DNA of 64,000 nucleotides, taken from assembly GCF_016775155.1 (NCBI RefSeq), contig NZ_JAEUGD010000018.1, forward strand, positions 80,049 through 144,048. The letters are read 5' to 3'. The notes beneath the pieces were generated by a model. It was not told the origin of the DNA. It searched no databases and saw only the letters and a list, made by a program, of their open reading frames with translations. Positions 1 to 22,609 of this stretch are shown here, piece after piece. A program made the position numbers and the translations under genes. The DNA is from Fulvivirga marina. GTDB taxonomy: Bacteria; Bacteroidota; Bacteroidia; Cytophagales; Cyclobacteriaceae. Numbering within the stretch: position 1 is the first letter of the stretch; the number at the start of each line of letters is the position of its first letter.

Positions 1-1169
1 TGCTTAATCGCATCGATAATTTTGGATAGAAACTGATGATAAGTGATGTCCTTTTTACTCTTGTACAAATGATAGTTGACACCGAGTTTATAACTAAGCA
101 TACTTCCACAATCTGATCCTGATTCAACTATATGTACAACATAGTTCTTAAAGTAATTCTCCAGATAGTTTAAGTAACAATTCAGAGAGAATGAATAATC
201 TGTGTTTATATCATCTATTAATACGAGAATGGCACAATTAGAAAGATCCATCTTTGAATTTTGCGCAATGGACAAAGAGTAATTTGATGAATCATTTAAG
301 TAACTATATTCATTACTGGCATTAAGCTCCAATTTTTTGAATCCATTGAGAACATATAGCTGTAAAGATTCCTTATCCATACTATTTACTAGATGCCACT
401 CTTTTTCATTACTCCTATAAAACCCATTGTACCGACTATCAACTCCTCTATAATGCTCTAAATGGTATATATTATTAGACTTAAAAGTATAGTGCTTTAG
501 CCCAAGTTTTTTTGCCCTGTAAACAAACTCCATATCCTCATATCCATAGGAAATAATATTAGTATTCCATCCTCCTATAAGGCTGAACGCCTTCTTATGA
601 TACATTATACATCCACCTGTACTAAAATAATCGCTGTTTCCATATATAGGATACATATTGGACAAGTCATATTGCTCAATCTCCTGTCGATAATTTCTTG
701 GATAAAAAGTAAGGCTATCAGTCAACTGTTTTACACTATTGGCATGAATAAAAAATTTTGATATCTCCACCATAATACCGTTATGTGGAGATAGTATTGA
801 CCATTCATTTTTTTCGATTCTCTTAAGAGCCTTAAAGATTACTTTAGGCTCTACTAAAACATCCACATCAATCATCATTACCACGGGCCTAGTGGCCAGA
901 CTCGTCGCCAGATTTAAATTTCTTGTTTTATAATGGGTTCCTGCATCATGGATAAATTGATATTGAAAATGATTTTCAGAAGCTAATTGTTGTTCAGTAA
1001 GAAAAACATTCTGATGCTCACCTTGCTCTACAATAATTATCTCAGTATTAGAAAGATAAGAGCACAGATAGTCAATTACAAAATGTAGATTGTTAATCCT
1101 GTCTTCGGAATCAACCTTGACTTCCATAATTACTGAAAGCTTTCCCAAATCATACCTTTCCATGCTCAT
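1..1169 (-). CDS. GT-A family 2-type glycosyltransferase, C-terminus cut by window edge
   Basis: The reading frame starts at the ATG at 1169 (MSMERYDL) and runs off the left edge, so about 389 residues are visible. The N-terminal half has the layout of a family 2 nucleotide-sugar transferase: a beta-alpha start, then VVMMIDVDVLVEP (a DxD-type metal/sugar-nucleotide site), then FSTGGCIMYHKKAF and GGWNTNIISYGYEDMEF. The last of these is the acceptor-side GGW..GYEDxE motif of the galactosyltransferase C-terminal (Glyco_transf_7C) type. After about residue 280 a second segment begins (LSNCAILVLIDDINTDY) that could be another domain. The gene is last in a leftward run with the carbamoyltransferase, ATP-grasp and hydrolase genes and lies 26 nt below the carbamoyltransferase stop. 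Donor and acceptor are unknown. An ATG two codons later (1163) is an alternative start. Confidence 0.8.
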   Translation of the reverse strand, partial: MSMERYDLGKLSVIMEVKVDSEDRINNLHFVIDYLCSYLSNTEIIIVEQGEHQNVFLTEQQLASENHFQYQFIHDAGTHYKTRNLNLATSLATRPVVMMIDVDVLVEPKVIFKALKRIEKNEWSILSPHNGIMVEISKFFIHANSVKQLTDSLTFYPRNYRQEIEQYDLSNMYPIYGNSDYFSTGGCIMYHKKAFSLIGGWNTNIISYGYEDMEFVYRAKKLGLKHYTFKSNNIYHLEHYRGVDSRYNGFYRSNEKEWHLVNSMDKESLQLYVLNGFKKLELNASNEYSYLNDSSNYSLSIAQNSKMDLSNCAILVLIDDINTDYSFSLNCYLNYLENYFKNYVVHIVESGSDCGSMLSYKLGVNYHLYKSKKDITYHQFLSKIIDAIK

Positions 1170-1195
1170 CTTATCTCATTGATTATTTATAATTA

Positions 1196-2779
1196 CTACA
1201 ACTGCTTTAAGTAAATACTATCATCGGTAATAAAACCATCCAAGTCGGTTGTACCTACAAAATGCTTAATATCATGCAAACTATTGATGAAACCTACACC
1301 AAGAAAATTCAGTGACGTGTTGCATAGCACACCAAAACCAGTTTCATACTTAAATGCATTAAGGATATTATAAAGATGAGCATTGGAGGTTTGAGTCACG
1401 GTCTGCACTCTGGCCGTATCATCCACATGGGTAATAGCTTTTAATTTGGGTGAAATTACCTTTTGGAAGTAGAGCATATAGGGGCTAGACTGATCCCAGT
1501 CGAAAAACTTTGCAACATCTTCTTCCAGGCATACCGGAGCCACAGGACGATAGTCTTCCCGCTTTTTGATCGCATTAATTCTTCGCTTTGATTCCAGAGT
1601 AAAAGGAGCTGCTATAATTGATCTATTCCCAAGAGCCCGAGGCCCTATCTCGCACTTACCATGAATAAGACCGAAAATTTTACCGTCTTTGAGCAACTTC
1701 GCCACAGATTTAGCATCAAAGTCATGCCTGTCAAATTTTACTCCAGAATAGTTGTCAACATGTTTCTTAAAATCCTGTCCACAGTAAACATCCCAAGAAA
1801 CCTTGGCAACACCTGTATGATGGTATAATGCATCCACAGCCGTCCCAATCGCTGAGCCTGTATCATTTGTAACAGGCGCTACAAATATATCGGAGAATAA
1901 GCCTGAATTCTTCCACTTACTATTCCACTCACAGTTTAATCCACAGCCTCCTGATATTAAGAGCGGATATCCCTTCTTACAATTCTTTTGAGCAAATGCT
2001 AAAAACTCATTGAATATGAGATCAGAAAACTTTCCACAAAACTCTTTAAAATCAGCATCCTCCACCCCTGCGTTATAGAATGGAGACCACTCCATGTAAT
2101 CTTCCAGTCCATCATAAACCGTATTGTTTAGTATAAAATCAGCTGTTTTCTTTTCAATTTCATTCAATTCTCCTCTATTCGAAAATCCGGCCAAGGCCAT
2201 CACCTTACCAGAATAACTATTGCTTATCTTAGCAGAACCTTCCGAGGCCAGATGATATAGAAAACCGTATTTCACACCGGGTTGATTCATTACTGTCCCG
2301 AGTTTTTTAATTTTTAGACTTGGGTCTATTTCGTAAAAATCACCAAATCTACCTTCCCATATCAAAGCATAGCAGGGCTCCCCCTGTGCGAATGGGGACA
2401 TGGCGTAAGTACCCATAAGATGAGACCTCTCATGAGAAGACGAAAACATATCAATCTGCCTACCCATAAAATTCATCTTCTGTGACTGCATATGCGGCAA
2501 GTCAATCCCAGCATATCCCGATCCTATGTCTGCCAAGCCATCAAACTCGAGCGTTTTAGCCCATCCGCTGATCGCCACTACATCAGGAATATCATCAATA
2601 TACTGAAATGCATCAAATATAGTGGATGCGTTAAGTTGTGAATACCTACCATGAGAGTCCTTTTCCGCTTCGTAAGAAAACTCCAACTTGCCGTCTTTGA
2701 TGTAAGCAATACTTCCGTCATGTCCGGGCTTAAAGGATAATATAGAAGTTACATTGCTATTTGGTACATGACCTCCCAT
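1196..2779 (-). CDS. Full-length NodU/CmcH/TobZ-family O-carbamoyltransferase
   Basis: This 527-residue protein has both domains of the O-carbamoyltransferase family. The N-terminal Kae1-like domain begins with a PGHDGS motif (residues 18-23), and SHERSH (H116, H120) sits where the family has its metal-binding HxxxH. A GGCGLNCEWN segment (277-286) and a TNDTGSAIG segment (305-312) follow. The C-terminal YrdC-like domain starts near 355 and carries the signature GPRALGNRS (379-387) and YRPVAPV. In characterised members the C-terminal domain makes carbamoyl-adenylate from carbamoyl phosphate and ATP, and the Kae1-like domain passes the carbamoyl group to a hydroxyl of a sugar or antibiotic. The acceptor here is unknown, though neighbouring glycosyltransferases suggest a sugar. 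The first half is divergent from typical NodU (HERSH rather than HHxAHA), so substrate predictions by similarity would be unsafe. Confidence 0.88.
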   Translation of the reverse strand: MGGHVPNSNVTSILSFKPGHDGSIAYIKDGKLEFSYEAEKDSHGRYSQLNASTIFDAFQYIDDIPDVVAISGWAKTLEFDGLADIGSGYAGIDLPHMQSQKMNFMGRQIDMFSSSHERSHLMGTYAMSPFAQGEPCYALIWEGRFGDFYEIDPSLKIKKLGTVMNQPGVKYGFLYHLASEGSAKISNSYSGKVMALAGFSNRGELNEIEKKTADFILNNTVYDGLEDYMEWSPFYNAGVEDADFKEFCGKFSDLIFNEFLAFAQKNCKKGYPLLISGGCGLNCEWNSKWKNSGLFSDIFVAPVTNDTGSAIGTAVDALYHHTGVAKVSWDVYCGQDFKKHVDNYSGVKFDRHDFDAKSVAKLLKDGKIFGLIHGKCEIGPRALGNRSIIAAPFTLESKRRINAIKKREDYRPVAPVCLEEDVAKFFDWDQSSPYMLYFQKVISPKLKAITHVDDTARVQTVTQTSNAHLYNILNAFKYETGFGVLCNTSLNFLGVGFINSLHDIKHFVGTTDLDGFITDDSIYLKQL

Positions 2780-2811
2780 GTATTAAAATTTTAGTATGTT
2801 GAAAAATTATA

Positions 2812-3744
2812 TTAGGTTAATATCCTGGCTCTTTCGGCTAGTATCTGCACTGCTTGACGTGGTAAGTCTACATGAGTAACCTCAAGCACATTTCGATATA
2901 AGAACACCGTGTTTATCTCAATCAAATGATAGTGATTACTTTCACTTAAGCCAACATCTATCCCATATAGGCCTAACCTACAATCTTGAGGAAGTGCTTT
3001 AAGAAGAAACTCTTCTACATACTCAAAATCCTCTTCGATAGGCATCATTTTACCTCCTCTTGAAAGATTCTTAAGGAGTCTATTATCTCCTGCATGCTTT
3101 TCATAGGCACAGATAATATTATTATCTGCTATATAAACTCTCCACTCCTTCACAAACCGTATGAATCGTTCGAGAAGAATAATTCGCTCACCCTCATCAA
3201 AATTTTCAAGGATAAACTGACGCGCTTGCGTCAGAGTCTTTAATTTCTGAATTCCCATTCCTCCAAGTCCATTGATTGGCTTGTTCAGAAGAGGAAAATC
3301 TCCGTTTTTCTCGGCCATAGCCAGAGTTTCATCCACCATAGCTCTGCTGTGGATCAAGTAACTATTTGTTCTGACATTCGAACCTTTGGTTTGTAACAAT
3401 TCATAGCATTTTCCTATATTGTCCGTTATGCCATTATAACAATGAACAAATCTTTCCAGTCCGGTACTTAGCGGACATCCATCCTTCTCCAGATTACCTA
3501 ACAACAATAATAACTGTTGCGCTGTACAATCTCCATATTCAAGAAAATATACCATGGATAAATCATTGAGCGATACACCATCCATCCACATTAATGGATA
3601 AACACTATCTCTTCTGTACTCATAAATCACCCTTTCTGGATGGATTATGATGATTTCATCATAAAGAGATCTTGAGTGCTCAATAAACCCACGTCTTTCA
3701 TCAAAAATACTCGAATGGTATATAATACCTAATCGCTTTTTCAT
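2812..3744 (-). CDS. RimK-like ATP-grasp ligase
   Basis: The protein has ATP-grasp fold landmarks: a glycine-rich ATP-binding loop LLNKPINGLGGMGIQKL near residue 160, an LLERFI...KEWRVYIADNNII strand pair, and a C-terminal GIDVGLSESNHYHLIEINT segment containing the Asp/Glu/Asn residues that usually bind Mg-ATP. ATP-grasp enzymes join a carboxylate, as an acylphosphate, to an amine or thiol. I take the ATG at 3744 (MKKRLGIIYHSS, 310 residues) because it begins the first beta strand and lies just after the upstream hydrolase stop; an ATG 15 nt earlier (3759) would overlap that gene by 14 nt. It is not closely similar to the ATP-grasp gene at 17843-18775. The substrate is unknown: a peptide, amino acid or amino-sugar conjugate is plausible. 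Confidence 0.8.
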   Translation of the reverse strand: MKKRLGIIYHSSIFDERRGFIEHSRSLYDEIIIIHPERVIYEYRRDSVYPLMWMDGVSLNDLSMVYFLEYGDCTAQQLLLLLGNLEKDGCPLSTGLERFVHCYNGITDNIGKCYELLQTKGSNVRTNSYLIHSRAMVDETLAMAEKNGDFPLLNKPINGLGGMGIQKLKTLTQARQFILENFDEGERIILLERFIRFVKEWRVYIADNNIICAYEKHAGDNRLLKNLSRGGKMMPIEEDFEYVEEFLLKALPQDCRLGLYGIDVGLSESNHYHLIEINTVFLYRNVLEVTHVDLPRQAVQILAERARILT

Positions 3745-3745
3745 A

Positions 3746-4423
3746 TTAAACGTACGCATTTAAATAGGGACTTAGCACTTCTTTCAGACGCCCATTGTCA
3801 CGCATCTCCCTGGCCACAAAATGTCCTCCGGTAGTACCTACTACATTAGTGTTATTCCATTTAGAAATAAGATTGCTCACATGTAGCTGATCTCGCTCAT
3901 GATTGGGATCATAAAACAGGTCAATGGTATCATTTGATAGATCAAGCTGACTCAAATCCAAATATCTATGACCTTTGTAATCCTCGTTTATTCTAGTTAA
4001 GTGCTTCATGTACCGGCTGGGTATAGATCCATTTAAAAGCGTTTGAGGTGAAAAACAAAAGATGCGATTAGCCTTAAGAAGATGTCCATAAAGCAGACTT
4101 GCGTAACCTCCAGCACACATACCTAGTGTATAGACACTTTGAAAATTATGCTCGCTGATCACTGAACGCAACTTATTGAGCGTTTCATCATGAGAGTTAG
4201 AAAATCCTTTTATTCCTTTATAATACCAAGATCTTTGACTGTCCTTTAGAAACAAAAAATTATGTTCAGGGAAACTTCTGCTCAAAAAGCCTTTGAACTC
4301 AAAATAAGTTTGTACTCCAAAACTGGAAAAAACTATGGTCAAAGCTGGAATATTATGTGCAAAATTAAAGTTATAGTCAATCTTATCCATTACTGAAACA
4401 AACTTATAGCTCCCCGGAGTCAT
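3746..4423 (-). CDS. Alpha/beta-hydrolase-like protein with Cys in the nucleophile elbow
   Basis: This 225-residue protein looks like a small alpha/beta hydrolase. After a YTLGMCAGG segment (99-106) comes a helix, then IFCFSPQTLL. The nucleophile elbow reads G-M-C-A-G (C103) instead of GxSxG. A later DLFYDPNHERDQL (D172) and GTTGGHFVAREM (H201) supply plausible acid and His partners. Cys nucleophiles occur in dienelactone hydrolases and some acyltransferases, so the change need not mean inactivity. The start may be the ATG at 4423 or the internal ATG before DKIDYNFNF (residue 12). It is the first gene of the leftward set hydrolase, ATP-grasp, carbamoyltransferase, glycosyltransferase. A role in releasing or transferring an acyl group during cluster product assembly is inference only. 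Confidence 0.6.
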   Translation of the reverse strand: MTPGSYKFVSVMDKIDYNFNFAHNIPALTIVFSSFGVQTYFEFKGFLSRSFPEHNFLFLKDSQRSWYYKGIKGFSNSHDETLNKLRSVISEHNFQSVYTLGMCAGGYASLLYGHLLKANRIFCFSPQTLLNGSIPSRYMKHLTRINEDYKGHRYLDLSQLDLSNDTIDLFYDPNHERDQLHVSNLISKWNNTNVVGTTGGHFVAREMRDNGRLKEVLSPYLNAYV

Positions 4424-4655
4424 TAGTCAATAATAATCCGAGATTAATAGTTGATTGTACAATTTTTAATGAAAAATAAAACAAAAACCCATCTCAATAC
4501 CGAATTGAGGGACATAAGTAACCGTTTTCAAAAATTAAAAAAATAGTTAACTGGAATTAATATTTAAGCAAAATGTTCAAGTTAAAAAAACAAATATAGG
4601 CAGTTAAGTTTAATTATTTAATTCTTAACTTTAGCAAGTTTTATTTTATTAAAAG

Positions 4656-4670
4656 CTATCATATTGATAG
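4656..4670. promoter_or_regulatory. Short perfect inverted repeat in the divergent intergenic region
   Basis: CTATCA-TAT-TGATAG forms a perfect 6-bp dyad 35 nt upstream of the split carbamoyltransferase gene pair, in the 281-bp AT-rich region shared with the leftward hydrolase operon. A TAACTTTA sequence about 25 nt further upstream resembles the Bacteroidota -7 box TAnnTTTG with one mismatch. Either could belong to the divergent promoter. Such a short dyad can arise by chance in AT-rich DNA. Confidence 0.25.
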
Positions 4671-4704
4671 TATATAGTATTATTTTTTAATCTTCAATTC
4701 TTTT

Positions 4705-5271
4705 ATGTCTCAAAAAGTATTGATGTATTCGGCACAAACTGCAGCCGAATATCTCTTTAACGGCTTTATAGGCGGTTTTACCCGAGGAAGAGCCGAAGCA
4801 GGCCCCAGAGCTTTGGGTAATAGATCCATATTAGCAGATGCAAGAAGTGTTACTAACAAAGATCGAATTAATGGTTTTATAAAAAACAGAATGGCCTTTC
4901 AACCACTGGCACCATTATGTCTGGATGAGGATTTTGACAAGTATTTTGAAAGATTATCTTGTGACATCTCCCTAGATTATATGCTTTTCGCTGTTAAGTG
5001 CAAACCACTGGCAGAACAGACTGTACCAGCTATAATTCACGCTGACCAGACGGCAAGAGTTCAATTAATTAATAAGGAAAACTATCCGCATTTATACGAG
5101 TTACTGATTGAATTCAAAAAACTTTCGGGAATAGGTATATTAATTAATACTTCATTTAATGGCAAAGGCGAGCCCATAGTTAATACCCCGGATCAGGCTT
5201 ATGCCGCTTATAAAACTTTAGATCTTGATTTCCTCGTTCTTGACAAATACTTTATAACAGAAAGACTATGA
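4705..5271 (+). CDS. Stand-alone carbamoyltransferase C-terminal (YrdC-like) domain
   Basis: This 188-residue protein corresponds to only the C-terminal domain of NodU/TobZ-type carbamoyltransferases. It carries EAGPRALGNRSILADAR (signature at residues 33-41), FQPLAPLCLDEDF, HADQTARVQ and ILINTSFNGKGEPIVNTP, all family landmarks in family order. In TobZ this domain makes carbamoyl-adenylate. The N-terminal Kae1-like domain is missing here and is encoded by the next gene, which overlaps this stop codon by ATGA. The domain starts cleanly at an ATG with no remnant of an upstream N-terminal domain, and the gene order is the reverse of the usual domain order. It is therefore not simply a frameshifted full-length gene. 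The two products presumably form a two-subunit enzyme. Confidence 0.88.
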   Translation: MSQKVLMYSAQTAAEYLFNGFIGGFTRGRAEAGPRALGNRSILADARSVTNKDRINGFIKNRMAFQPLAPLCLDEDFDKYFERLSCDISLDYMLFAVKCKPLAEQTVPAIIHADQTARVQLINKENYPHLYELLIEFKKLSGIGILINTSFNGKGEPIVNTPDQAYAAYKTLDLDFLVLDKYFITERL

Positions 5272-6302
5272 TATTGGGCGTAAACCTCAACCATGATTAT
5301 GCATATTGTAAAATCGATGGCGATAATATTTATTTACTTGAAATGGAAAGGCATTCCAGAATAAGGCATCACTGGAATAAAGAATCATATACATTAGCCA
5401 TACTGGACGATCTTTCTGTTGAAGAACTAAAAAATACAGAAACTATCTACCTCAATTCTCCGAATATGGACCAAATTGAAGAAAAAGGAGGCAATTTATC
5501 TTCTCTAAAGCGTGAATATCACTATCGAGGTGACTATCTGACATTAGATAATAATAGCGGCCTGAGCCATGGCAAACTTGAAGTCGAGGGAATTGAAATA
5601 GATTGCACTTGGGTCAGCCACTATCATGCCCATGCTGCGAGTTCATTCTTCACATCATCTTACGACCAGGCTGATATTCTCTGTATTGACGGAGGAGGCG
5701 ATTTTGGACTTGGCGCATGGTTTTACGGAGACAAGACCGCCATAAATCTTAAATCTAGGTATTTGGATTGTCAATTGGGTCTAAGCTATCATGAATTCTC
5801 AAAAAACGTTTTTAATGTACAAGGCCGTGGATTTTATGAGAGTAAAGTAATGGCACTAGCCGGGTTTGGTAAGAGAGAAAAAAGTGCAAACAAGTTTCTC
5901 AAAGCTGATTCCACTTTGAATGACATGTCAGCCTATAACAAAATATCTGTACACGATATTGCTCAGTTTCAACATGATTTTGAACAAGGCATAGTCGACC
6001 TTATACTTAAAGACAAGAAAAATGACTATTTATGTTGTGCTGGTGGTTGTTTCTTAAATGTCAGCCTCAACAGAGAACTTGTTGAACGTGGCTTATATAA
6101 AGGTATATGGATACCTCCATATACCTCTGACATGGGTATAGCCATCGGCTGCGCTCTCTACGCATATATAGATTGCAAGGGCGAACTCCCTCCTAGCACT
6201 CTGCTTAAAAATCCGTACCTTGGAGATCATTTAAGCGTCTCTCTTGAGAAAATTAAATCTATAATAGAAAAGAGCGGCGAAGAATATGAGCTTCACACGT
6301 AA
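5268..6302 (+). CDS. Stand-alone carbamoyltransferase N-terminal (Kae1-like) domain
   Basis: This 344-residue protein is the N-terminal half of an O-carbamoyltransferase. It opens with ILGVNLNHDYAYCKIDGD, the family's HD segment, and has the metal-site motif VSHYHAHAASSFF (H118, H120, H122). DILCIDGGGDFGLGAW, ESKVMALAGFG, CAGGCFLNVSLNREL and PPYTSDMGIAIGCA follow, all Kae1-like landmarks. It ends near where the linker to the C-terminal domain would begin. In TobZ this domain transfers the carbamoyl group from carbamoyl-adenylate to the acceptor hydroxyl. The start codon overlaps the stop of the preceding C-terminal-domain gene (ATGA at 5268-5271), suggesting translational coupling. It is closer to classical NodU (HxHAHAAS) than is the full-length copy at 1196-2779, so the two enzymes probably differ in substrate. 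Confidence 0.88.
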   Translation: MILGVNLNHDYAYCKIDGDNIYLLEMERHSRIRHHWNKESYTLAILDDLSVEELKNTETIYLNSPNMDQIEEKGGNLSSLKREYHYRGDYLTLDNNSGLSHGKLEVEGIEIDCTWVSHYHAHAASSFFTSSYDQADILCIDGGGDFGLGAWFYGDKTAINLKSRYLDCQLGLSYHEFSKNVFNVQGRGFYESKVMALAGFGKREKSANKFLKADSTLNDMSAYNKISVHDIAQFQHDFEQGIVDLILKDKKNDYLCCAGGCFLNVSLNRELVERGLYKGIWIPPYTSDMGIAIGCALYAYIDCKGELPPSTLLKNPYLGDHLSVSLEKIKSIIEKSGEEYELHT

Positions 6303-6322
6303 AACTAGACATTCCCTCAAAA

Positions 6323-7207
6323 TTACGGTTTAAAAACAAATGAACGCATCGCAGATCTGGTTCTGTGTAAGGGAATCAGTTCTGATTTATATTCAGCATG
6401 AAATCTAATTAATCCAGTAGCATTTAAATTACCAAACTGAGGAGAAACAACTATAGATTTACCAGGCACTAGCTTATCTCTCAACTTATTATATATTGAA
6501 ACCATCGACTCATACTCATCTGTAAAGTCTTGGATCAATAAAACAACAGACTCAGGTGTTATATAATCATAATCATGATTCAATATATCACATTCATGAA
6601 TTGTCACATGATCTTTAGGATTTACGAGCGTTTTAAACTTTTCACTAAAAGACTGACCCTTTTGAAAAGACTCAAAATTTGGATTATCCAAATCTCTACA
6701 GGTAGAATACATCCAATCCTCCCATAAGAACTGGTCATAGACATGTACTTTATTATTTTTGAGGTTTTTATTTAGGATATTGGTTGTAGCGCCCATCCAA
6801 GGGCCAAGTTCAAGAATACTGCAATCCTGATACTCACGACCGATAGCTTGGCAGGTATCCTTTATGTAACTCAATGTTTGAGGGTATATCAATTTTGGTA
6901 TACCCACTTCATCAATATCGAGCTCCTTGGTTTCCAAAGATGTAAACTGTGTTTCTACCTCAAGATAATCTCTGTATGACTTTAGAAGCTCCGCTACTTT
7001 TGGTTGTATATTCTCAATATTTTCAAGAAAAAATCGACATTTTCTGACGTAATTACTAGTATCAAAATCAAGCAGCGCATTTCTCCTTTCTAAGGAAATA
7101 AGAAATTCACATAGAGAAAAATTTAGGGTATCATTTGAAAATGGATTTAAAAAAATTCTTCTATTTAGTATTTCCCTTTGAAGAGAAAGAATATCGTCAC
7201 TTTTCAT
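6323..7207 (-). CDS. Class I SAM-dependent methyltransferase-like protein
   Basis: The 294-residue protein has a Rossmann-type motif I SILELGPWMGATTNIL in its middle, followed by a KVHVYDQFLW strand, an IHECDILNHD acidic segment and VVLLIQDFTDEY, as expected of a class I SAM methyltransferase fold. The first about 120 residues are helical and family-specific. The layout resembles sugar or macrolide O-methyltransferases of the TylF/macrocin type, but I cannot assign a subfamily. The gene lies 34 nt downstream of the FtsX-like permease gene on the same strand and converges with the Kae1-like carbamoyltransferase gene 20 nt away. Its role in tailoring the cluster product is inferred from context. 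Confidence 0.7.
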   Translation of the reverse strand: MKSDDILSLQREILNRRIFLNPFSNDTLNFSLCEFLISLERRNALLDFDTSNYVRKCRFFLENIENIQPKVAELLKSYRDYLEVETQFTSLETKELDIDEVGIPKLIYPQTLSYIKDTCQAIGREYQDCSILELGPWMGATTNILNKNLKNNKVHVYDQFLWEDWMYSTCRDLDNPNFESFQKGQSFSEKFKTLVNPKDHVTIHECDILNHDYDYITPESVVLLIQDFTDEYESMVSIYNKLRDKLVPGKSIVVSPQFGNLNATGLIRFHAEYKSELIPLHRTRSAMRSFVFKP

Positions 7208-7241
7208 TTAAATCAGTTTATATACTATAAAAAAATTGAGC

Positions 7242-9635
7242 CTATTTTTCACGGATCACTTTAACAGGATTGACATTACTCGCCTTGACTATTTGAATTA
7301 CTATGGTTAGCAATGATACAAATAATAAAATAAGAGCTGGAAGAAGTATATGCGCTATGTTCATATCGATTCTATAATGAAAATCATTAAGCCATCGACC
7401 TATTGAGTAGTAAGCAATTGGTAAAATCATCAAGATCACACCCAAAAACAGAATCAGATATTTTTTAACAAAAAGAATAATTATCTGAAATGAGGTAGCT
7501 CCAAACGTTTTCCTTATGCCCACCTCCAACTTACTATCGGTAATTTCATAGAGTGACAAACCAACAAGACTGAAACAACCCAAAAACACTGCTATAAAAG
7601 TAAGAAGTTTCATTACTCTTAGTAGCTGACTTTCATCATTGAATTGATTTTTATAGTAGGTATCTAATGAAATGAATTCAAACGGCTGATCAGTGTACAC
7701 TTTATCCCATATAGCCCTTAATTCTTCTACCCTTTTATCAGAAAGTGGGTTTTGCTCAGCAGCATAGCTAACAGTGAAATACCCTCTTACAGGATTGAAT
7801 TTCATTATCATGGGGCCTATTTTCTCTTTCGGAGAAGTTTTATGATAATCCTGAAATACGCCTATAATTGTATATACATTATTATCATCATCATTCAGGC
7901 GCTCTCCTATAGCTTCAGCAGTTTCTAACCCTAGCAATTTCAATGAAGCTTCATTAATTAGAACTTGATTTTTATTCAACTCCTTTTCACTTTTCTGAAA
8001 ATCCTTCCCGAAGATTATTTTGACAGAGTATGTAGATAAAAATTTTCTATTAACATTATTTACATACATTAATACCTTATCATCCGAACCCACCAGAGAA
8101 TAATTCTCACCCTGCCTATACGGCTGTCCGGGTATTGTGGATGAGGAGGAGACATTCTCAACCCATGATATTTGCTTTAGCTCATACCTAAAAGAACCTG
8201 CTCTCGCACCTTTGCCTTCCCAGCTATCTTTCGGTGGTTTGATTATCAGTTTATTATTTAATTCGATACCCTTATCCAGATCATACAAGTACTTAATCTG
8301 AACATCCATAATGTATGTAAAAGACATCATAAATACGGCTATAGCAAACTGAAAGCCCGTCAAAAGTCTTCTTTTTAATAATGTTGACCTGGATTTATAT
8401 TTATGTGACTGAGATGTGGCAGCATTATTAGACACAAATACTGTTTTCAACACATAAAGCGAAGGAAGTAGCGCTCCTAAAATGAAGATAGCTATAAATA
8501 TGGTATTGATATGATACTTATTACTTGCTAATGGCAGCAAATGATTTGCCGCAAGTCCGGAAAAATAGTCATAGACCCCGTTTAAAAGCAATACTGCAAT
8601 ACCAATAGCCACCAACAGCACAAGAGCCGTTTCAAAAAGATATTGAAGTAGTAGCTGTGTATTACTAGCTCCTATGGATCTCCTTATAAACATCTCGCTT
8701 TGTCTGCGCATAAACTGTACTACGGAAAGATTTGAGAAGCTTATCCATGAAAGAATCATAATCAAGACGCCTATCGATATCAATAATATTTCAAATTTTG
8801 ACAAAGATGGTTTCAATGGCTTTAAAGTTATAGAAATGCTCCTATTATCACCTTTGAAAATCTGCTTTCGGTTGATGACATCAGAGATTTTAGCTGCCAC
8901 GCTCTCATAATTTTCTGAATCACCAATTAAAATATATTGATTGTGCTCAGGGTTTTCCCAGAGATCATTGGTCTCTTCTGCGGCTCTCAAGAGTATATTA
9001 AAATCCAGATTAGAGCTGGCCGGAGGATCCTTTACGACACAAGTAATAGTCCAAATATCTTCCTGCCCCCAAGGTGCCCGCGCCCTTATTGACTTACCCA
9101 ATGCATTTGTATTACCAAAGTACTGCCTGGCTATATCTTCAGTAATAATAATTGAGTTAGGCCTTTCTAAGGCACCTATCAAATCTCCATCAACCCGCTC
9201 CAGGTTAAATATTTTAGTAAAAGTAGAATCGACTGAAAATATTCCTGTCTGATTAAAACTCTCTGAACTACCTCCATCATCATCGACATAAATTAATGTC
9301 TCAACATGCCAATCAAATTTGGTGTAATTTTCGACCTCGGGAATTTCTCTCATCGCTGTAATGCCTACACCACGATAACTAGAACTTCCATCGTAACTTA
9401 TATTCCCATTATTGCTCTCCGTTTGATCAATATGAAAGATCCTATCTCTATTATTATAATTTTCATCTAATGTCAAAGAATAACCAACATATTTGCCTGC
9501 GAGTAGCACTGATGCCATGCCAATTAGCAAACCGCATATAGTAATTAAATTGGCCACCCAATTACTTTTAAAAATCTTTAAAAAAGTTCTCAGATAGTGA
9601 TAAATTATATCAGGATTAAAAAACATTTGAAACAA
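7242..9635 (-). CDS. FtsX/MacB-type ABC transporter permease, Bacteroidota type
   Basis: This 797-residue protein has the duplicated architecture of Bacteroidota FtsX-like permeases. A first membrane segment near residues 27-50 is followed by a large periplasmic MacB_PCD-like domain, a three-helix FtsX block (about 280-400), a second anchor near 425-445, a second periplasmic domain (about 450-660), and a last FtsX block containing LSLYEITDSKLEVGIRKTFGATSFQ near residue 690. It ends with the family's NVNPVKVIREK tail. Such proteins pair with a LolD/MacB-type ATPase acting on envelope lipoproteins, peptides or glycolipids. No ATPase gene is adjacent, so a partner must be encoded elsewhere, as is common in this phylum. 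Its place in the cluster suggests export or self-protection, by inference. Confidence 0.85.
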   Translation of the reverse strand: MFQMFFNPDIIYHYLRTFLKIFKSNWVANLITICGLLIGMASVLLAGKYVGYSLTLDENYNNRDRIFHIDQTESNNGNISYDGSSSYRGVGITAMREIPEVENYTKFDWHVETLIYVDDDGGSSESFNQTGIFSVDSTFTKIFNLERVDGDLIGALERPNSIIITEDIARQYFGNTNALGKSIRARAPWGQEDIWTITCVVKDPPASSNLDFNILLRAAEETNDLWENPEHNQYILIGDSENYESVAAKISDVINRKQIFKGDNRSISITLKPLKPSLSKFEILLISIGVLIMILSWISFSNLSVVQFMRRQSEMFIRRSIGASNTQLLLQYLFETALVLLVAIGIAVLLLNGVYDYFSGLAANHLLPLASNKYHINTIFIAIFILGALLPSLYVLKTVFVSNNAATSQSHKYKSRSTLLKRRLLTGFQFAIAVFMMSFTYIMDVQIKYLYDLDKGIELNNKLIIKPPKDSWEGKGARAGSFRYELKQISWVENVSSSSTIPGQPYRQGENYSLVGSDDKVLMYVNNVNRKFLSTYSVKIIFGKDFQKSEKELNKNQVLINEASLKLLGLETAEAIGERLNDDDNNVYTIIGVFQDYHKTSPKEKIGPMIMKFNPVRGYFTVSYAAEQNPLSDKRVEELRAIWDKVYTDQPFEFISLDTYYKNQFNDESQLLRVMKLLTFIAVFLGCFSLVGLSLYEITDSKLEVGIRKTFGATSFQIIILFVKKYLILFLGVILMILPIAYYSIGRWLNDFHYRIDMNIAHILLPALILLFVSLLTIVIQIVKASNVNPVKVIREK

Positions 9636-9718
9636 TTTAATGAACTTTAAATCTAAATTTTTTCTTGATTAAATTTCTCACAAAGCTAATAATATCTCAT
9701 AATTAACCCCTTTCATTT

Positions 9719-10789
9719 ATGCCTAATAAAATTAAAGACGATATGGAACATTTTTTTTGTTCAAAACCATTTGATTTTTTGTCAGTCCGTACCGATGGTA
9801 ACGCCTGGGTATGCTGCGAAGATTGGCTCCCAGTATCGATAGGCAATCTCTCTGGAGGCTTAACTTTGGAAGAGGTGTGGAACAGCGACACCGCTAAATC
9901 AATAAGAAAATCGATACTTGATGGCTCTTACAAATACTGCAAAGAAAATCGTTGCCCCTTTCTTGTTGCCAAAACGCTGCCGGAGATCAGCAAGGAAAAA
10001 GTAAATCACCTGATGAAATATACTTCTCCCGTAAAATCCGTGCGAGCACCATTACCAGAGAAAATTAGTCTAACTTATGATCCTACGTGTAATTTAAAAT
10101 GTCCGTCATGCAGGTCTGACTATATCGTGCTAAAAAAAAGTGGTAGATCAAAAGCGCAGGATATTCAAGATAAAATTTTTACTTCTACGTCCTCAAAAGA
10201 CTTAAAACAAATTATATTAACCGGATATGGCGATCCCTTTTCAAGTTCTGTACTTAGAAGTTTTCTTAAAAATATAGTTCCTGAGGAATTTCCTTCGTTA
10301 AGAATAAACCTGATGACTAATGGACTATTGCTTACACCAAGAATGTGGGAAAGCATATCATCTTCACATAGTCTAATTAAAAACATCCATGTATCCATTG
10401 ATGCATGTAGTCATGAGACCTACTTGCAGAATAGAGGAGGTGATTTTTCAAAACTACTTGAAAATTTAGAATTTATTGGTTCTCTAAGAAAGAAAAATAC
10501 ACTAGCTAGATTTGAAATCAGCTTTGTTGTTCAAGAAAATAACTTTACAGAAATGCCAGATTTTGTTCGTTTGGGTAGGAGGTTGAAATGTGACGAGGTA
10601 CTATTTCAGAAAATCTTCAATTGGGGCACTTATGAAGACACTGATTTTAAAAAACATGCAATTCATAAATCAACTCACGAAAGACACAATGATCTGGTTA
10701 GAGTTTTAAATTCAGAAATACTAGCTGACAGCATTGTAAACCTTTCAAATCTAACCGATTTAAAGACTTCAACTAACTTTACACTGTAA
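9719..10789 (+). CDS. Radical SAM enzyme with N-terminal SPASM-like cysteine region
   Basis: This 356-residue protein has the radical SAM cluster motif CNLKCPSC (C124, C128, C131), preceded by KISLTYDPT and followed by glycine-rich LTGYGDPF and HVSIDACSHETY segments of the SAM barrel. Before the barrel lies a SPASM/twitch-like region: C14, the C32-C33 pair in DGNAWVCCED, the IGNLSGG..LEEVWNSD segment, and C74/C79 in KYCKENRC. This probably binds an auxiliary iron-sulfur cluster. SPASM is more often C-terminal, but an N-terminal version occurs in radical SAM proteins of natural-product and glycan clusters. The substrate is unknown. A divergent 83-nt spacer separates it from the permease gene, and the next gene follows 16 nt downstream, so the two are probably co-transcribed. 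Confidence 0.85.
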   Translation: MPNKIKDDMEHFFCSKPFDFLSVRTDGNAWVCCEDWLPVSIGNLSGGLTLEEVWNSDTAKSIRKSILDGSYKYCKENRCPFLVAKTLPEISKEKVNHLMKYTSPVKSVRAPLPEKISLTYDPTCNLKCPSCRSDYIVLKKSGRSKAQDIQDKIFTSTSSKDLKQIILTGYGDPFSSSVLRSFLKNIVPEEFPSLRINLMTNGLLLTPRMWESISSSHSLIKNIHVSIDACSHETYLQNRGGDFSKLLENLEFIGSLRKKNTLARFEISFVVQENNFTEMPDFVRLGRRLKCDEVLFQKIFNWGTYEDTDFKKHAIHKSTHERHNDLVRVLNSEILADSIVNLSNLTDLKTSTNFTL

Positions 10790-10805
10790 CCAACTATCTC
10801 AAAAC

Positions 10806-11651
10806 ATGGTTTTTGATATATTTATCAAATCGACAGGACAAGATCTTCTTTGTTTTCAAGAACTACAGAAAGATATTAAAATATATTCAAATCTTGGAGG
10901 CAAGGTGTACGTCAGTGTACCAAAGCAGGATTACGAGCTTTTTCAAAACGTCATATCTGAGGATTTTATTCTTCTGACAGACCAAGAAATAATAATATCC
11001 TGGAATTATAGTGGTAAGTACTACAGCGACAACTGGTACATGCAGCAAGCACTGAAACTTCTTATCTCTAGATACATTGAAAATGAATATTATCTCATTC
11101 TTGATTCGAATACACTTATTACAAGAAGGTTTGACGAGAATGATTTTTACCTGAACGGTCTGGTCAAATATAATATAGGTAATGAAAACGGTGATGATCT
11201 CAACTTTGAATATTCGACAGCTGCCTTTCTGGGATTACAATCTTACAAGGCCGTTGGCTTCAATAATGTCAATCAGGTATTCAATACGGCTAACGTCAGA
11301 CAGTTACTTAAACACATAGAATCACTAGTAGATGAGCCTGTAGCAGATAATCTTATTACCTCGTGCCTCCCTAATCATGAAAAATGTCCTCCACCATGGA
11401 CCGAATTTCACCTTTATGGAATATTTAGCAAAGAACTCAGTCCAGTACAACATCATGCTTATTCAAGGGATAATCAAATAGCACATTTCAAATACACCGG
11501 ACGAGATGCCATACTCAAATTTATCAACGATATTCAAGCGTCAAAACCATTATTTATAAAATTCTGGAAATCGAGACGCCTGGATGTCGCTGACATTCCT
11601 GACAAAGAGTATCTTCAACTGATTAGTGAGTTAAAATCTTCATTTCAATGA
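10806..11651 (+). CDS. GT-A-fold glycosyltransferase-like protein (DUF6492-like)
   Basis: The 281-residue protein begins with FDIFIKSTGQDLLCFQELQKDI and contains WYMQQALKLLISRYIENEYYLILDSNTLITRRF, where LDSNT takes the place of a DxD site. Later PPWTEFHLYGIF appears. This order resembles the DUF6492 group of nucleotide-diphospho-sugar transferase-like proteins found next to other glycosyltransferases; the assignment rests on my memory of that family. The gene follows the radical SAM gene by 16 nt and converges with the large glycosyltransferase gene, leaving 1 nt between stop codons. The substrate is unknown. Confidence 0.6.
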   Translation: MVFDIFIKSTGQDLLCFQELQKDIKIYSNLGGKVYVSVPKQDYELFQNVISEDFILLTDQEIIISWNYSGKYYSDNWYMQQALKLLISRYIENEYYLILDSNTLITRRFDENDFYLNGLVKYNIGNENGDDLNFEYSTAAFLGLQSYKAVGFNNVNQVFNTANVRQLLKHIESLVDEPVADNLITSCLPNHEKCPPPWTEFHLYGIFSKELSPVQHHAYSRDNQIAHFKYTGRDAILKFINDIQASKPLFIKFWKSRRLDVADIPDKEYLQLISELKSSFQ

Positions 11652-11652
11652 T

Positions 11653-14241
11653 CTACTCTGGCTCACATACCTCCTCACCAAGTACAGGCCTCCAGTTTCT
11701 ATCATAGTGATAAAGATAAAAAGCCACTTTATGATACTTTATATTAGGATTACGTGAAAGAGCTATCTCAGAATCATTTTTATCATTATCATTAGTGAAT
11801 GACAAAAACGCATCTCCTTTGATTTTTCGTAATTCTACACCCAATACATGAGACAGTAGATATGACAACCAATAATCATCTATCCATGCCATTTCTGGCT
11901 GTGGATAGCTATAGGTTGCTGCCTGTTTCAATAATTGTTTGGACAGAATACAGCTATTAGCATGAAAATAATGAACTTCACACGTAGGTTCATCATAAGT
12001 GTGCCACCTTATATTATCTTTCTTCCAAATCAGGTGTGGATTATCTTCGTCTAACTCATTGGATAAAAAGCTCTCCCCACTCACACATACCAAAGATTTG
12101 TCCCCATACCTTTCATGGTTCTCCCAAAGTTCTTCAAGATATGTAATTCCGGGAAGTACATCATCGTCACAAAATACAACTTTCTCCCCCCTAACCAGGC
12201 TAGAAAGTGCGAGTCTTGGTCTGCAAAGTATATTCTCAGAAGAATGTATAAGTTTTATATCTAACTTATCTCTGTAAATCGCTGCAATTTCGTTGAGATC
12301 ATTCCTGAATTCAAAATTATTATTCCAGATGACCAACTCAAAACTCCTTTGAGTGGACTGCTTACTGAAACAATCAAGTATCTCTCTGATATTGAAGAGT
12401 CTTGAGTACACACACATGATGATAGAAATATCAAAATCTTTAAAGTGGATACTCTCTCGTGACAACATTACATCTGCCTCGTCAGTCTCGTTGCTTTTAG
12501 TCGGGGCAACTGGTGTTTCATTCTCATGATCATTCTCAATGACTGAGGCTGGCCAGCCTTTTCTCATGTGATATTTATAAAAGGTGGCCCTTTCTTTGCG
12601 AACCTTAGGATTGTGAAATAGCGCTATATCCTTGTTATCCGCACATGGGGTAAATTTAAAGTTATCATCGAATTTAACTTTCCATATCGGAATACGGAGC
12701 TCGTGAGATATGATATATGACATCCAGTAATCATCAATAAGTATGAAATCGAGGTTCTCCCATTCATAATTATTGAGCTTAAGCAAAATACTTCTTGGTA
12801 TCAGACAGTTATCTGCATGAAAAAAGTGGATCTGAATATCTTCCTTGGTTTCATCATAGAATGTCATGTGCTTACCTCTATCCCACACTTTATCAGCAGT
12901 TTCCTCATCCAGTGTGTGTGGCTCAAATTTATGTCCTCTTGTGCAAAGAACAGCCTCTGGCCCGTAAGCTTGATATTTCTGCCAAAAATCTCGTATGTAA
13001 TGCTTGCCCGGCTGAACGTCGTCATCACAAATAAGTAAATAATCACTCTGCATCAGATGTGCCATAGCCAGCCTCATAGCACAGTAATAATTTTCTGACG
13101 AATGTATCAATCTGATATTGATCTTATCCTTGAAATCTTCGACGATAAGATCAAGCTCTGCCATCGTACTTATATTATTATTCCAAAGGATTACCTCAAA
13201 GGTTCCATCAAATTCCTGATTGGAAAACCGTTCAAGAATCCCTCGTATATTATAAACACGATTGTAAGAGGTGATGACGACGGTAATGTCGTATTGTTTG
13301 AATATTTTATCCTTTTGACTGTTTGGTATATCCAAGCTCCTATAAATTGGTGAAGCATGCAGGCTTTTCACAAAGAATTCTTTTGTTATCTTTTGCTTGT
13401 CCATCGAAACGAGATATTGATGAGCTTCCATAACAAGATCTAATTTTTTCAATTTATCACCTGCCTCTTCCACACTATTATAGTATAGGGGATAATCCTC
13501 ACCCAGATATTCTATAACACCGGGAAGCCTATTGATCAAAATCGGCGCATTTCTCGCAATACATTCTAGAACTGTAGTATTGGCAGGAGCGTCATAAAGG
13601 TTTAGGAATACTATACTTGTAGACAAAAGTGAGTCATATTCCTCGTCACTCACTCTCGCGACAATCTCTACGGATTCATTGATATTGACATCCTGCTGCC
13701 TAAAAGCTTCATTATCAAGAAGTATTTTTTTGTACCCATCAGCTTTGATATCAAAAAAGGGTTGAAAATTCCTCAAATATTCTCCTATAAAGATTATCTT
13801 TCTCTCCCCTTCCAAAAATCCATCTTTGTCGAACTCAACGAAATCAAAGTCCATCGGATAAAACAATCGATTAACCTTAACTGGTAGATTCTGAGCATCC
13901 AGAAAATCCTTCAGGTAGCTTGAAAGAGTATAAATACCCTTGCAATATTTGATACTCCTTTTCCATGAGTTGTAATTGATCAGCCGTTTTAAGTCTGGAA
14001 ACACCATATTATTATTATCAGGCACCTGATGTATAAAAGCTATCCACGGCTGTTCTAAAGGCTTACGATGAAACAGATGATCTTCTAGCGCATTGATAAA
14101 TAAAATGCCATCTTCTGCATGAACTTCATATTTCAAAATATCTACTACGTACTTCCAACCTCCACGGTGTAAGTCCCAATAGATGGTGTCATCAACCTTG
14201 ACCTTATTATATTCCAGAATATAGTGATTATTATTACTCAT
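11653..14241 (-). CDS. Three-module glycosyltransferase: GT-B-like plus two tandem GT-A domains
   Basis: This 862-residue protein has three parts. Residues about 1-310 look like a GT-B (family 4-like) transferase, with IIFIGEYLRNF and a C-terminal VFLNLYDAPANTTVLECIARNAPILINRLPG segment. Residues about 318-565 form a GT-A domain (DITVVITSYNRVYNIRGIL, WNNN, LICDDDV, HFFHADNCL, LIDDYWMSY). Residues about 600-862 form a second GT-A domain with the same motifs in the same order (DISIIMCVYSRLFNIREIL, WNNN, VFCDDDV, HYFHANSCI, WIDDYWLSY), so the two GT-A units arose by duplication. Both keep DDDV metal-binding aspartates, suggesting both may be active. The gene begins 2 nt after the upstream aminotransferase stop. 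It may add successive or alternating sugars; acceptor and donors are unknown. Confidence 0.82.
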   Translation of the reverse strand: MSNNNHYILEYNKVKVDDTIYWDLHRGGWKYVVDILKYEVHAEDGILFINALEDHLFHRKPLEQPWIAFIHQVPDNNNMVFPDLKRLINYNSWKRSIKYCKGIYTLSSYLKDFLDAQNLPVKVNRLFYPMDFDFVEFDKDGFLEGERKIIFIGEYLRNFQPFFDIKADGYKKILLDNEAFRQQDVNINESVEIVARVSDEEYDSLLSTSIVFLNLYDAPANTTVLECIARNAPILINRLPGVIEYLGEDYPLYYNSVEEAGDKLKKLDLVMEAHQYLVSMDKQKITKEFFVKSLHASPIYRSLDIPNSQKDKIFKQYDITVVITSYNRVYNIRGILERFSNQEFDGTFEVILWNNNISTMAELDLIVEDFKDKINIRLIHSSENYYCAMRLAMAHLMQSDYLLICDDDVQPGKHYIRDFWQKYQAYGPEAVLCTRGHKFEPHTLDEETADKVWDRGKHMTFYDETKEDIQIHFFHADNCLIPRSILLKLNNYEWENLDFILIDDYWMSYIISHELRIPIWKVKFDDNFKFTPCADNKDIALFHNPKVRKERATFYKYHMRKGWPASVIENDHENETPVAPTKSNETDEADVMLSRESIHFKDFDISIIMCVYSRLFNIREILDCFSKQSTQRSFELVIWNNNFEFRNDLNEIAAIYRDKLDIKLIHSSENILCRPRLALSSLVRGEKVVFCDDDVLPGITYLEELWENHERYGDKSLVCVSGESFLSNELDEDNPHLIWKKDNIRWHTYDEPTCEVHYFHANSCILSKQLLKQAATYSYPQPEMAWIDDYWLSYLLSHVLGVELRKIKGDAFLSFTNDNDKNDSEIALSRNPNIKYHKVAFYLYHYDRNWRPVLGEEVCEPE

Positions 14242-20995: not shown

Positions 20996-22609
20996 CTAAG
21001 CCTTAAACAAATTAATGGTCACTGTTGCCAAATCGGAGTCCGGATATTTTCTAAACATCTCTTTATCATGAGAAAGGCCAGCCTCCTGTAATACTTTGAT
21101 AAACTCCTCTACTTCAACAATATATTGATCAGAATAGCCATGAGTAACATCATAAGCAGTAGCTGCAGTTTTGCCCAGATTTTGAGCTACGAGTTCAGGG
21201 CTTACGGTGTGAAGCTCAATAAGGAGTAATCCATACTGCTTTACATAGGGTGTCCACCTTTTGAAATGCTGCCTGAGCGATTCAGAAACCAAATTATTAC
21301 TCAGCCTCCTACCCTCACTGCAATAAGCTCCGGTAGAGGAACTTATTCTCAGGTCATCTTTTTGCTCAGGTTCCTCCCAGATGCGATTATGATCCAGAAA
21401 GGTGCGTACATTGAGTAAATCCTTCAGGTCAATATTATACGCTTCCTTAAGGTCAGAAGCCAGTATATCCGGCTTACCAATATCTCCCCAAATAATCTTA
21501 GCCCAAATATCCGCCTGTATCAGATTCGCCTTTGATACTTTCAAGGCGGCTTCATTATAATCCACCCCTATCAATAATAGTGGATGTTCCTCAAGCACCC
21601 TTCCTCGTTGCGTCTGATTAGCTACTACATTAAACAAATGTTTTAAGAAAGCTCCATTACCACAGCCCATATCCAGGATACCCTTAGGCTGTTCGTCGAT
21701 TGGTCTGTTAAAGATCTCAATGATAATTTCATCGACTACCTTAAAATAAGCTGCATGCGCACCACCACTTCCCCATACATTCATTTCGCGATCTACATGC
21801 TTCTCATTCCCATTAGTGTCTGTCCCTTTTAATATTATGGGATCTCCAAAAATCAGATCATTGAGCTTTCTGAGCGTGGGAATATAAGATACGGTTACGC
21901 CATAAGCACTAGCCCTCTTTGCAAAGAACAAACCTTCCTCTGTAAACTCGTAAGTGTTATTGATTTTATTAAACCATTTCAGATGAGTAAGAATATCCAG
22001 CAAGCGCCCAAAACCATCGGCATCTTTATGAAATTCCTCCGCTTTAAACCGGGTCTCCATAAAGTACTTATGAAACATACCGCTCATACCAAGGTGCACG
22101 AGCGTTGGGCCTACTACTATTCCTTCAATATGCGTTAGTATTTGTTGATGAACTTCCTCCTCCAATGGGTTGGAATAGGCAGATTTCTCATGTTCATGCT
22201 TCAGTTTGCTAAAAACCACCTCCAATTTTTGGAAGGGTTCCATTTCAAACTTACGGTTATGATATTTCTCCGATAAAACCAGTAACTCCACTGCATCCTT
22301 ATAAAGGCTAAAAAAATCAAAGGCTATTTCTGAATGGTCATTAATCTCAAAAGTTACCTGATCCGCCTCATTATCAACCTGCTGATCAAGCCATCCCTGA
22401 GAGCACATAGCCCTAAGGGCTACATTAAGATACCCATCATTTGCATTGAATTGAGTGGCTATTGTTTTAAGGTCTGCCCTCTTCTCCACAAGCAAAAAAT
22501 CTGTAACACCATACTGCTTTAGGGTATATGCTGAAGGTGCTGTAACAATTCCGTCCAAATGCCGAAATATCTTACTTCTGAGTATGGCTTGTTCTTTTTT
22601 TGCGAGCAT
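20996..22609 (-). CDS. Large class I SAM methyltransferase with duplicated N-terminal helical module
   Basis: This 537-residue protein carries a SAM-binding motif ILDMGCGNGAFLKHLF near residue 304, followed by LIGVDYNEAALKVSKANL (ribose-binding acidic segment) and a WGDIGKPDIL motif. The first about 60 residues and residues about 155-215 look related: HLDGIVTAPSAYTLKQYGVTD...LRAMCSQGWL and HIEGIVVGPTLVHLGMSGMF...LTHLKWF, each resembling the winged-helix dimerisation module of O-methyltransferases. The layout recalls AprA-related methyltransferases of natural-product pathways, a tentative link. It stands alone among decayed genes on the minus strand, with no biosynthetic partner beside it. Confidence 0.7.
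   Translation of the reverse strand: MLAKKEQAILRSKIFRHLDGIVTAPSAYTLKQYGVTDFLLVEKRADLKTIATQFNANDGYLNVALRAMCSQGWLDQQVDNEADQVTFEINDHSEIAFDFFSLYKDAVELLVLSEKYHNRKFEMEPFQKLEVVFSKLKHEHEKSAYSNPLEEEVHQQILTHIEGIVVGPTLVHLGMSGMFHKYFMETRFKAEEFHKDADGFGRLLDILTHLKWFNKINNTYEFTEEGLFFAKRASAYGVTVSYIPTLRKLNDLIFGDPIILKGTDTNGNEKHVDREMNVWGSGGAHAAYFKVVDEIIIEIFNRPIDEQPKGILDMGCGNGAFLKHLFNVVANQTQRGRVLEEHPLLLIGVDYNEAALKVSKANLIQADIWAKIIWGDIGKPDILASDLKEAYNIDLKDLLNVRTFLDHNRIWEEPEQKDDLRISSSTGAYCSEGRRLSNNLVSESLRQHFKRWTPYVKQYGLLLIELHTVSPELVAQNLGKTAATAYDVTHGYSDQYIVEVEEFIKVLQEAGLSHDKEMFRKYPDSDLATVTINLFKA

Follow-up and report, generated by a model that had tools for sequence, protein, structure and literature searches.

A split O-carbamoyltransferase gene pair with reversed domain order in Fulvivirga marina, probably derived from a single-chain enzyme

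Class III O-carbamoyltransferases (the CmcH/NodU/TobZ type) such as TobZ, GdmN, NovN and VtdB consist of one chain in which a Kae1-like domain comes first and a YrdC-like domain second. What, then, is a locus of Fulvivirga marina in which both domains are present on two separate genes, with the YrdC gene first? The pair lies within the 64,000 nucleotides that we analysed (hereafter the window), and its split, swapped architecture is real and unusual. The first open reading frame (4705–5271, + strand) encodes a YrdC-like half of 188 residues, the predicted carbamoyl-adenylate synthase subunit, whose sole Pfam match at an E-value cut-off of 0.001 is Carbam_trans_C (PF16861; E 3.2e-56, 190 bits, profile positions 1–169 of 170). 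The second (5268–6302, + strand) encodes a Kae1-like half of 344 residues, the predicted carbamoyl-transfer subunit, with Carbam_trans_N (PF02543; E 2.2e-21, 77.1 bits) as its only match at the same cut-off; both scores exceed the curated cut-offs. The YrdC half ends and the Kae1 half begins within one ATGA (5268–5271, + strand), where stop and start codons overlap, an arrangement likely to couple translation of the two. The locus is thus organised as the original prediction, made from the letters alone, had described it, with one domain family per gene (Carbam_trans_C on the first protein and Carbam_trans_N on the second in the profile searches that it had proposed), an ATGA overlap, an order reversed relative to TobZ and a full-length copy nearby. 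This copy (1196–2779, − strand), 1.9 kb from position 4705, encodes a carbamoyltransferase of 527 residues with both Pfam domains, Kae1 first. Neither frame of the pair contains an internal stop, and codon scores are positive in-frame for each half and higher than in both off-frames, by a measure that is weak (9 of 24 other genes of the window scored better off-frame). The GC content of the pair is close to that of its surroundings, promoter and terminator scans gave results near chance, and a search of positions 1–12000 of the window for repeats marking a duplication returned just weak short pairs.

The predicted folds of both halves are closest to those of class III enzymes. The AlphaFold2 model of the YrdC half (pLDDT 93.7, pTM 0.90, 31 relatives in the alignment) was compared with the PDB by Foldseek; GdmN is the best match (TMq 0.92, rmsd 1.6), and GdmN, NovN, TobZ and VtdB occupy ranks 1–19 (TMq 0.86–0.92), against TMq 0.53–0.68 for TsaC/Sua5/YciO proteins. 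No match to PF01300 (Sua5_yciO_yrdC) was found for this half at E 0.001. The model of the Kae1 half is of moderate confidence (pLDDT 77.2, pTM 0.80, residues 67–93 below 50); TobZ, GdmN, NovN and VtdB are again at the top (TMq 0.60–0.65, rmsd 5.9–12), led by TobZ and GdmN with TMq 0.61–0.65, and Kae1/TsaD/Qri7 proteins rank next (TMq 0.48–0.54). We aligned the pair with 55 relatives, each a single ORF matching both halves. The four iron ligands reported for GdmN (H133, H137, D156 and D333; PMC9633730) are all present in the Kae1 half, as H118 and H122 in the motif HYHAH (residues 118–122; 5619–5633, + strand), both found in 55/55 relatives, D141 (5688–5690, + strand; D in 54/55) and D288 (6129–6131, + strand; D in 55/55). 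With these ligands among them, 24 of the 24 columns that are at least 90% conserved in the relatives are retained in this half. Its H9 (5292–5294, + strand) aligns by eye with TobZ H14, the residue changed in an H14N variant that one PDB title mentions. The pair thus shares with TobZ, GdmN, NovN and VtdB both domain families, the predicted folds, the iron ligands, the KxR/SxN tetrad and the linker; it differs from them in its two chains, in its YrdC-first order and in the replacement of E and R in the motif KxRExFRP, and it lacks the C-terminal dimerization domain described for GdmN (PMC9633730).

The border between the halves falls beyond the border between the domains. In the alignment with the 55 relatives, the Kae1 half extends through the inter-domain linker (PYLGDHLSVSLEKIKSIIEKSGEEYELHT) of the single-chain enzymes; its residues 308–344 (6189–6299, + strand) correspond to this linker and the lead-in to the YrdC domain, with a helix predicted by AlphaFold2 at residues 326–336. 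The YrdC half resumes where the Kae1 half stops, with the helix that precedes GRxExGPRALGNRS, and between the two there is no large loss or doubling. In GdmN, the Kae1-like domain is reported to end at residue 351 and the YrdC-like domain to start at 368 (PMC9633730); by gap-free extrapolation of the alignments, the cut corresponds approximately to GdmN 384–388, past both positions. About 37 residues beyond the Kae1 domain are therefore retained on the Kae1 half, and they are best explained by a former continuation into a YrdC domain, which points to a Kae1-YrdC ancestor that underwent fission and swap rather than to a never-fused state or a kinship with HypF. From sequence and models, we consider it probable (about 0.62) that the pair is a two-subunit class III O-carbamoyltransferase derived from a single-chain Kae1-YrdC enzyme by fission and swap; it is best read as a variant of a known enzyme, broken up and rearranged, rather than as a new or ancestral kind. 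The ancestral chain would have been cut within the inter-domain linker, and the order may have been swapped, for example, through a tandem duplication followed by loss of the outer domains, of which we found no remnant. The YrdC half would convert carbamoyl phosphate and ATP to carbamoyl-AMP. The Kae1 half, attached to the YrdC half via the retained linker, would then pass the carbamoyl group on to a hydroxyl on a glycan or small-molecule product of the tailoring cluster around the pair.

The original prediction had proposed a newly fissioned form among its alternatives, and this finds no support in the divergence of the halves: over most of its length, the YrdC half shares about 45% identity, and the Kae1 half about 28%, with the nearest of the relatives compared. 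Both halves form long branches and, given these together with the low identities, a recent fission is not supported by the sequences. The YrdC half has its nearest match in a single-chain enzyme encoded on an Agrobacterium plasmid (44.9% identity), the Kae1 half in a Mycetohabitans enzyme (28%). The source genome, of 6.78 Mb in 69 contigs, also encodes two further full-length carbamoyltransferases (contigs C64 and C39). The Kae1 half joins a group of eight rows that includes the neighbouring full-length enzyme and the C39 copy (98/70, not starred), with support 99 under a simpler model. The YrdC half has no starred place in the tree; IQ-TREE under LG+G4 puts it with L206, L210 and L128 at a weak support of 67. 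FastTree places the YrdC half with the same eight rows (0.91) as it does the Kae1 half (0.81–0.83) and the joined halves (0.99), a shared placement that could be caused by long branches. Grouping of the YrdC half with the eight rows is not rejected (AU p 0.32), and at the 60 columns that tell these rows from the rest, the halves match the group at 6, the rest at 22 and neither at 32. The sequences are compatible with one common ancestor for both halves.

Is the YrdC half still able to form an adenylate? The key motifs of both halves had been predicted to be intact, and this holds for GPRALGNRS (residues 33–41; 4801–4827, + strand), a run of columns conserved in the 55 relatives and all retained, for KxR, SxN and the iron ligands. 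The KxR/SxN tetrad described in the literature (PMC9654439, PMC10321239) is present as K60 and R62 in KNRMAFQP (residues 60–67; 4882–4905, + strand) and S150 and N152 in NTSFN (residues 148–152; 5146–5160, + strand). By alignment, with hand-counted numbering that allows for six extra N-terminal residues, K60 corresponds to TobZ K443, Q66 to TobZ position 449 and S150 to TobZ S530, and PDB titles show that K443 and S530 variants of TobZ have been crystallised. The claim fails at M63 and Q66, where 55/55 relatives have E and R, respectively. Together with D91 (P in 50/55), these are the three exceptions among 33 columns that are at least 90% conserved, the other 30 being retained. Since they fall at conserved columns, these changes may have impaired or altered the YrdC half. 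The full motif KxRExFRP is thus absent from the YrdC half, which reads KNRMAFQP; judging from the sequences, this motif is probably not strictly defining for class III O-carbamoyltransferases.

These substitutions, at places otherwise invariant in the 55 relatives, are the main point in favour of a decaying pair or a dead YrdC half, in which the adenylating site lost its E and R after the fission and the locus now drifts or serves a purpose other than catalysis; the long branches of both halves and the failure to find an orthologue of the pair (in genome searches among the matches listed, and via rare 8-mers) fit this account as well. We consider it unlikely, if a serious contender, because internal stops are absent, 54 of the 57 conserved columns are retained over both halves and the glutamine at position 66 recurs elsewhere. 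A genome scan for GPRALGxR followed by [FY]QP at the right spacing returned at least 117 stretches (L138–L254), each with a carbamoyltransferase match; all 117 listed loci, selected for Q, have Q at position 66, and they are mostly single-chain enzymes; Q66 is thus consistent with an enzyme that is being maintained. The 80 titles listed, out of at least 117, include Micrarchaeota, Woesearchaeota, Magnetococcales, Nitrospirae, Campylobacterales and Bacteroidota; many of these 80 are Micrarchaeota and other archaea (for example L143, L155 and L229). The same pattern gave 0 matches in viral_contigs. Position 63 in the 117 listed loci is E in 45, P in 33, V in 23 and another residue in 16. Among 112 further ORFs, position 66 is R in 108 and Q in 4, the one of the window included (5 ORFs had no motif match in this tally), and M63 is found in the window only among all 229 ORFs. 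The [FY]QP carbamoyltransferases therefore resemble the YrdC half in having Q for R at position 66 and differ in position 63, with M in 0/117, and in domain order, as all of their two-domain ORFs start with Kae1. A single clade of the YrdC half with the [FY]QP enzymes is not rejected (AU p 0.24). A literature search listed no obvious study of this group, which has the R-to-Q change in KxRExFRP. We also aligned the YrdC half by hhalign, at first with one TsaC row and then with a wider set. The profile alignment with PF01300 proteins of the same order is weak (E 0.0019, probability 14%), yet it pairs the known KxR and SxN, and the rows in which the motif is printed have D, K or Q at the position of residue 66; Q66 is therefore within the letters that TsaC/Sua5 proteins show there, as far as this weak alignment goes, which again weighs against decay.

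The surroundings of the pair look like a glycan or small-molecule tailoring cluster. A RimK-type ATP-grasp ligase (2812–3759, − strand; PF08443, E 4.2e-8) and, convergent with the pair, a probable methyltransferase (6323–7207, − strand; PF13578, E 0.0018, a weak match under the curated cut-off) lie close by, followed by a radical SAM/SPASM protein (9719–10789, + strand) and, near the cluster, an AprA-type protein with AprA_N, winged-helix and MT2-like methyltransferase domains (20996–22609). As a whole, the neighbourhood encodes two ATP-grasp proteins, glycosyltransferases, a DegT aminotransferase, an epimerase and a DUF6492 protein, and upstream of the window are two sulfotransferases, two TauD oxygenases, an HMGL-like enzyme, an FkbM methyltransferase and an ABC transporter. 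About 10 kb upstream of the window, a tyrosine recombinase with an arm-binding domain (L124:9191–10498) lies at the edge of the tailoring cluster; its position suggests a genomic island, on which the cluster may possibly be carried.

The full-length neighbour retains KxRExYRP and has E at one aspartate iron-ligand column, being the one enzyme of the 55 compared that lacks D there. It and the pair show opposite patterns, a ligand D-to-E change with a canonical YrdC motif in the one and KNRMAFQP with all ligands in the other. Such complementary oddities would fit a division of labour in which the canonical YrdC motif of the neighbour supplies carbamoyl-AMP to the split Kae1 half. This is improbable in our estimate, because glutamate is itself a possible metal ligand and Q stands at position 66 in many single-chain enzymes. 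That the two enzymes act on different acceptors, as the original prediction supposed, is a guess. The changed letters at positions 63 and 66 could also mean that carbamoyl phosphate is no longer used. The pair would then have reverted to a two-protein layout like that of TsaC and TsaD, with a YrdC half that uses an N-carboxylated amine or amino acid, and the group installed on a metabolite of the cluster would be a substituted, ureido-type carbamoyl; we regard this as a long shot.

A comparison with HypF and with the t6A synthesis proteins bears on whether the halves were ever fused. The original prediction had noted that the order matches HypF. This stands for the order itself, as the YrdC part precedes the Kae1 part in both (for the pair, in gene order only), and falls as a sign of kinship, given the fold ranks and the missing HypF domains. 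HypF, for which the same two-step chemistry is reported (PMC6022934, PMC9654439), is one chain with acylphosphatase and zinc-finger domains, neither of which is found in the pair at E 0.001, and its fold match to the YrdC half is far weaker (TMq 0.55–0.68, against 0.86–0.92 for GdmN, NovN, TobZ and VtdB). We rejected a HypF remnant on these two grounds. The source genome has two PF01300 matches, in frames of 326 and 213 residues, and thus no HypF-sized protein was seen in it. The TsaC/Sua5 and TsaD/Kae1 proteins of t6A synthesis resemble the pair in dividing adenylation and transfer between separate proteins and in the KxR/SxN tetrad, and differ from it in belonging to other families by Pfam and fold rank; moreover, the genome has its own PF01300 proteins besides the pair. 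Separate genes with YrdC first, and a letter at position 66 like that of TsaC/Sua5, would suit a primordial state of never-fused YrdC-like and Kae1-like proteins (compare TsaC and TsaD) whose order was later fixed in HypF. We judge this very unlikely, as both halves match class III families and not TsaC, TsaD or HypF, and as the Kae1 half retains roughly 37 residues of linker and YrdC lead-in, which contradict an early-diverging form that was never fused, the other alternative of the original prediction.

How rare is this arrangement? Among 239 carbamoyltransferase ORFs of different sequence in the fetched loci (some genes are counted twice, since loci cut them differently), 223 hold both domains and all 223 have Kae1 first; the set is not a random sample, because most loci were retrieved by the same domain or motif. 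Nine single-domain ORFs are clipped by contig or locus ends, and the remaining seven are the two halves of the window, four Kae1-side pieces of broken-frame genes and one partial YrdC domain. We searched with the YrdC half the genomes of 58 relatives, 390 of the order and 395 of the phylum, three sets that overlap, and 289 genomes of another class reached via a Reyranella locus; among the matches listed, 16/58, 123/390, 162/395 and 89/289 genomes had one, and none showed a second adjacent, reversed split pair of the kind that the original prediction had proposed to look for, although a very diverged one could lie outside the matches listed for the 390, 395 and 289 genomes. A check of short YrdC-domain frames, which left out a few of 465–500 residues, found L031, L136, L137, L301, L302 and L304 to be clipped by contig or locus ends and L303 to be a partial YrdC domain. 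Rare 8-mers in genome_contigs and viral_contigs gave candidates for close orthologues, none of them confirmed. Plasmid records matched the Kae1 half 71 times and the YrdC half 309 times (top rows 28.3% and 44.9%), and phage records 5 and 143 times; all these matches are below 60% identity, and we rejected mobile carriage of the pair. Five sites were inspected, four with annotated single-chain genes and an unannotated fifth with an ORF of both domains. In the Synechococcus phage PQ898602.1 (H75), the gene at a match to the YrdC half bears the annotation 2OG-Fe(II) oxygenase, which may reflect a fusion or a misannotation. In the literature, covered as titles and abstract openings and mostly outside subscription journals, nothing was recognisable as a split class III enzyme.

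A frameshift of a normal gene was rejected because of the order, since the broken-frame relatives (L133, L134, L135/L012 and L193) all have Kae1 first. Their frames break within the Kae1 part, except in L135, where the break is near the linker. That an assembly or sequencing artefact swapped or broke one normal gene is hardly credible, given that the domain border has a start and a stop codon overlapping as ATGA, that broken-frame relatives look different, that neither half recurs elsewhere in the source genome (other matches are at most 46% identical) and that the pair lies inside a contig of 154,865 bases, about 69 kb from its nearer end, which excludes a contig-end effect.

Reports on TobZ and HypF describe a channel between the fused domains through which the labile carbamoyl-AMP passes (PMC9654439, PMC6022934). 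If the pair is indeed a natural two-chain version of such an enzyme, fusion of the domains would be dispensable. The pair would then supply a ready-made heterodimer for combining adenylating halves with transferring ones, and a natural test of possible changes in domain order, which is reversed between TobZ and HypF. The pair also draws attention to the R-to-Q change in KxRExFRP that is common to the large group of [FY]QP enzymes.
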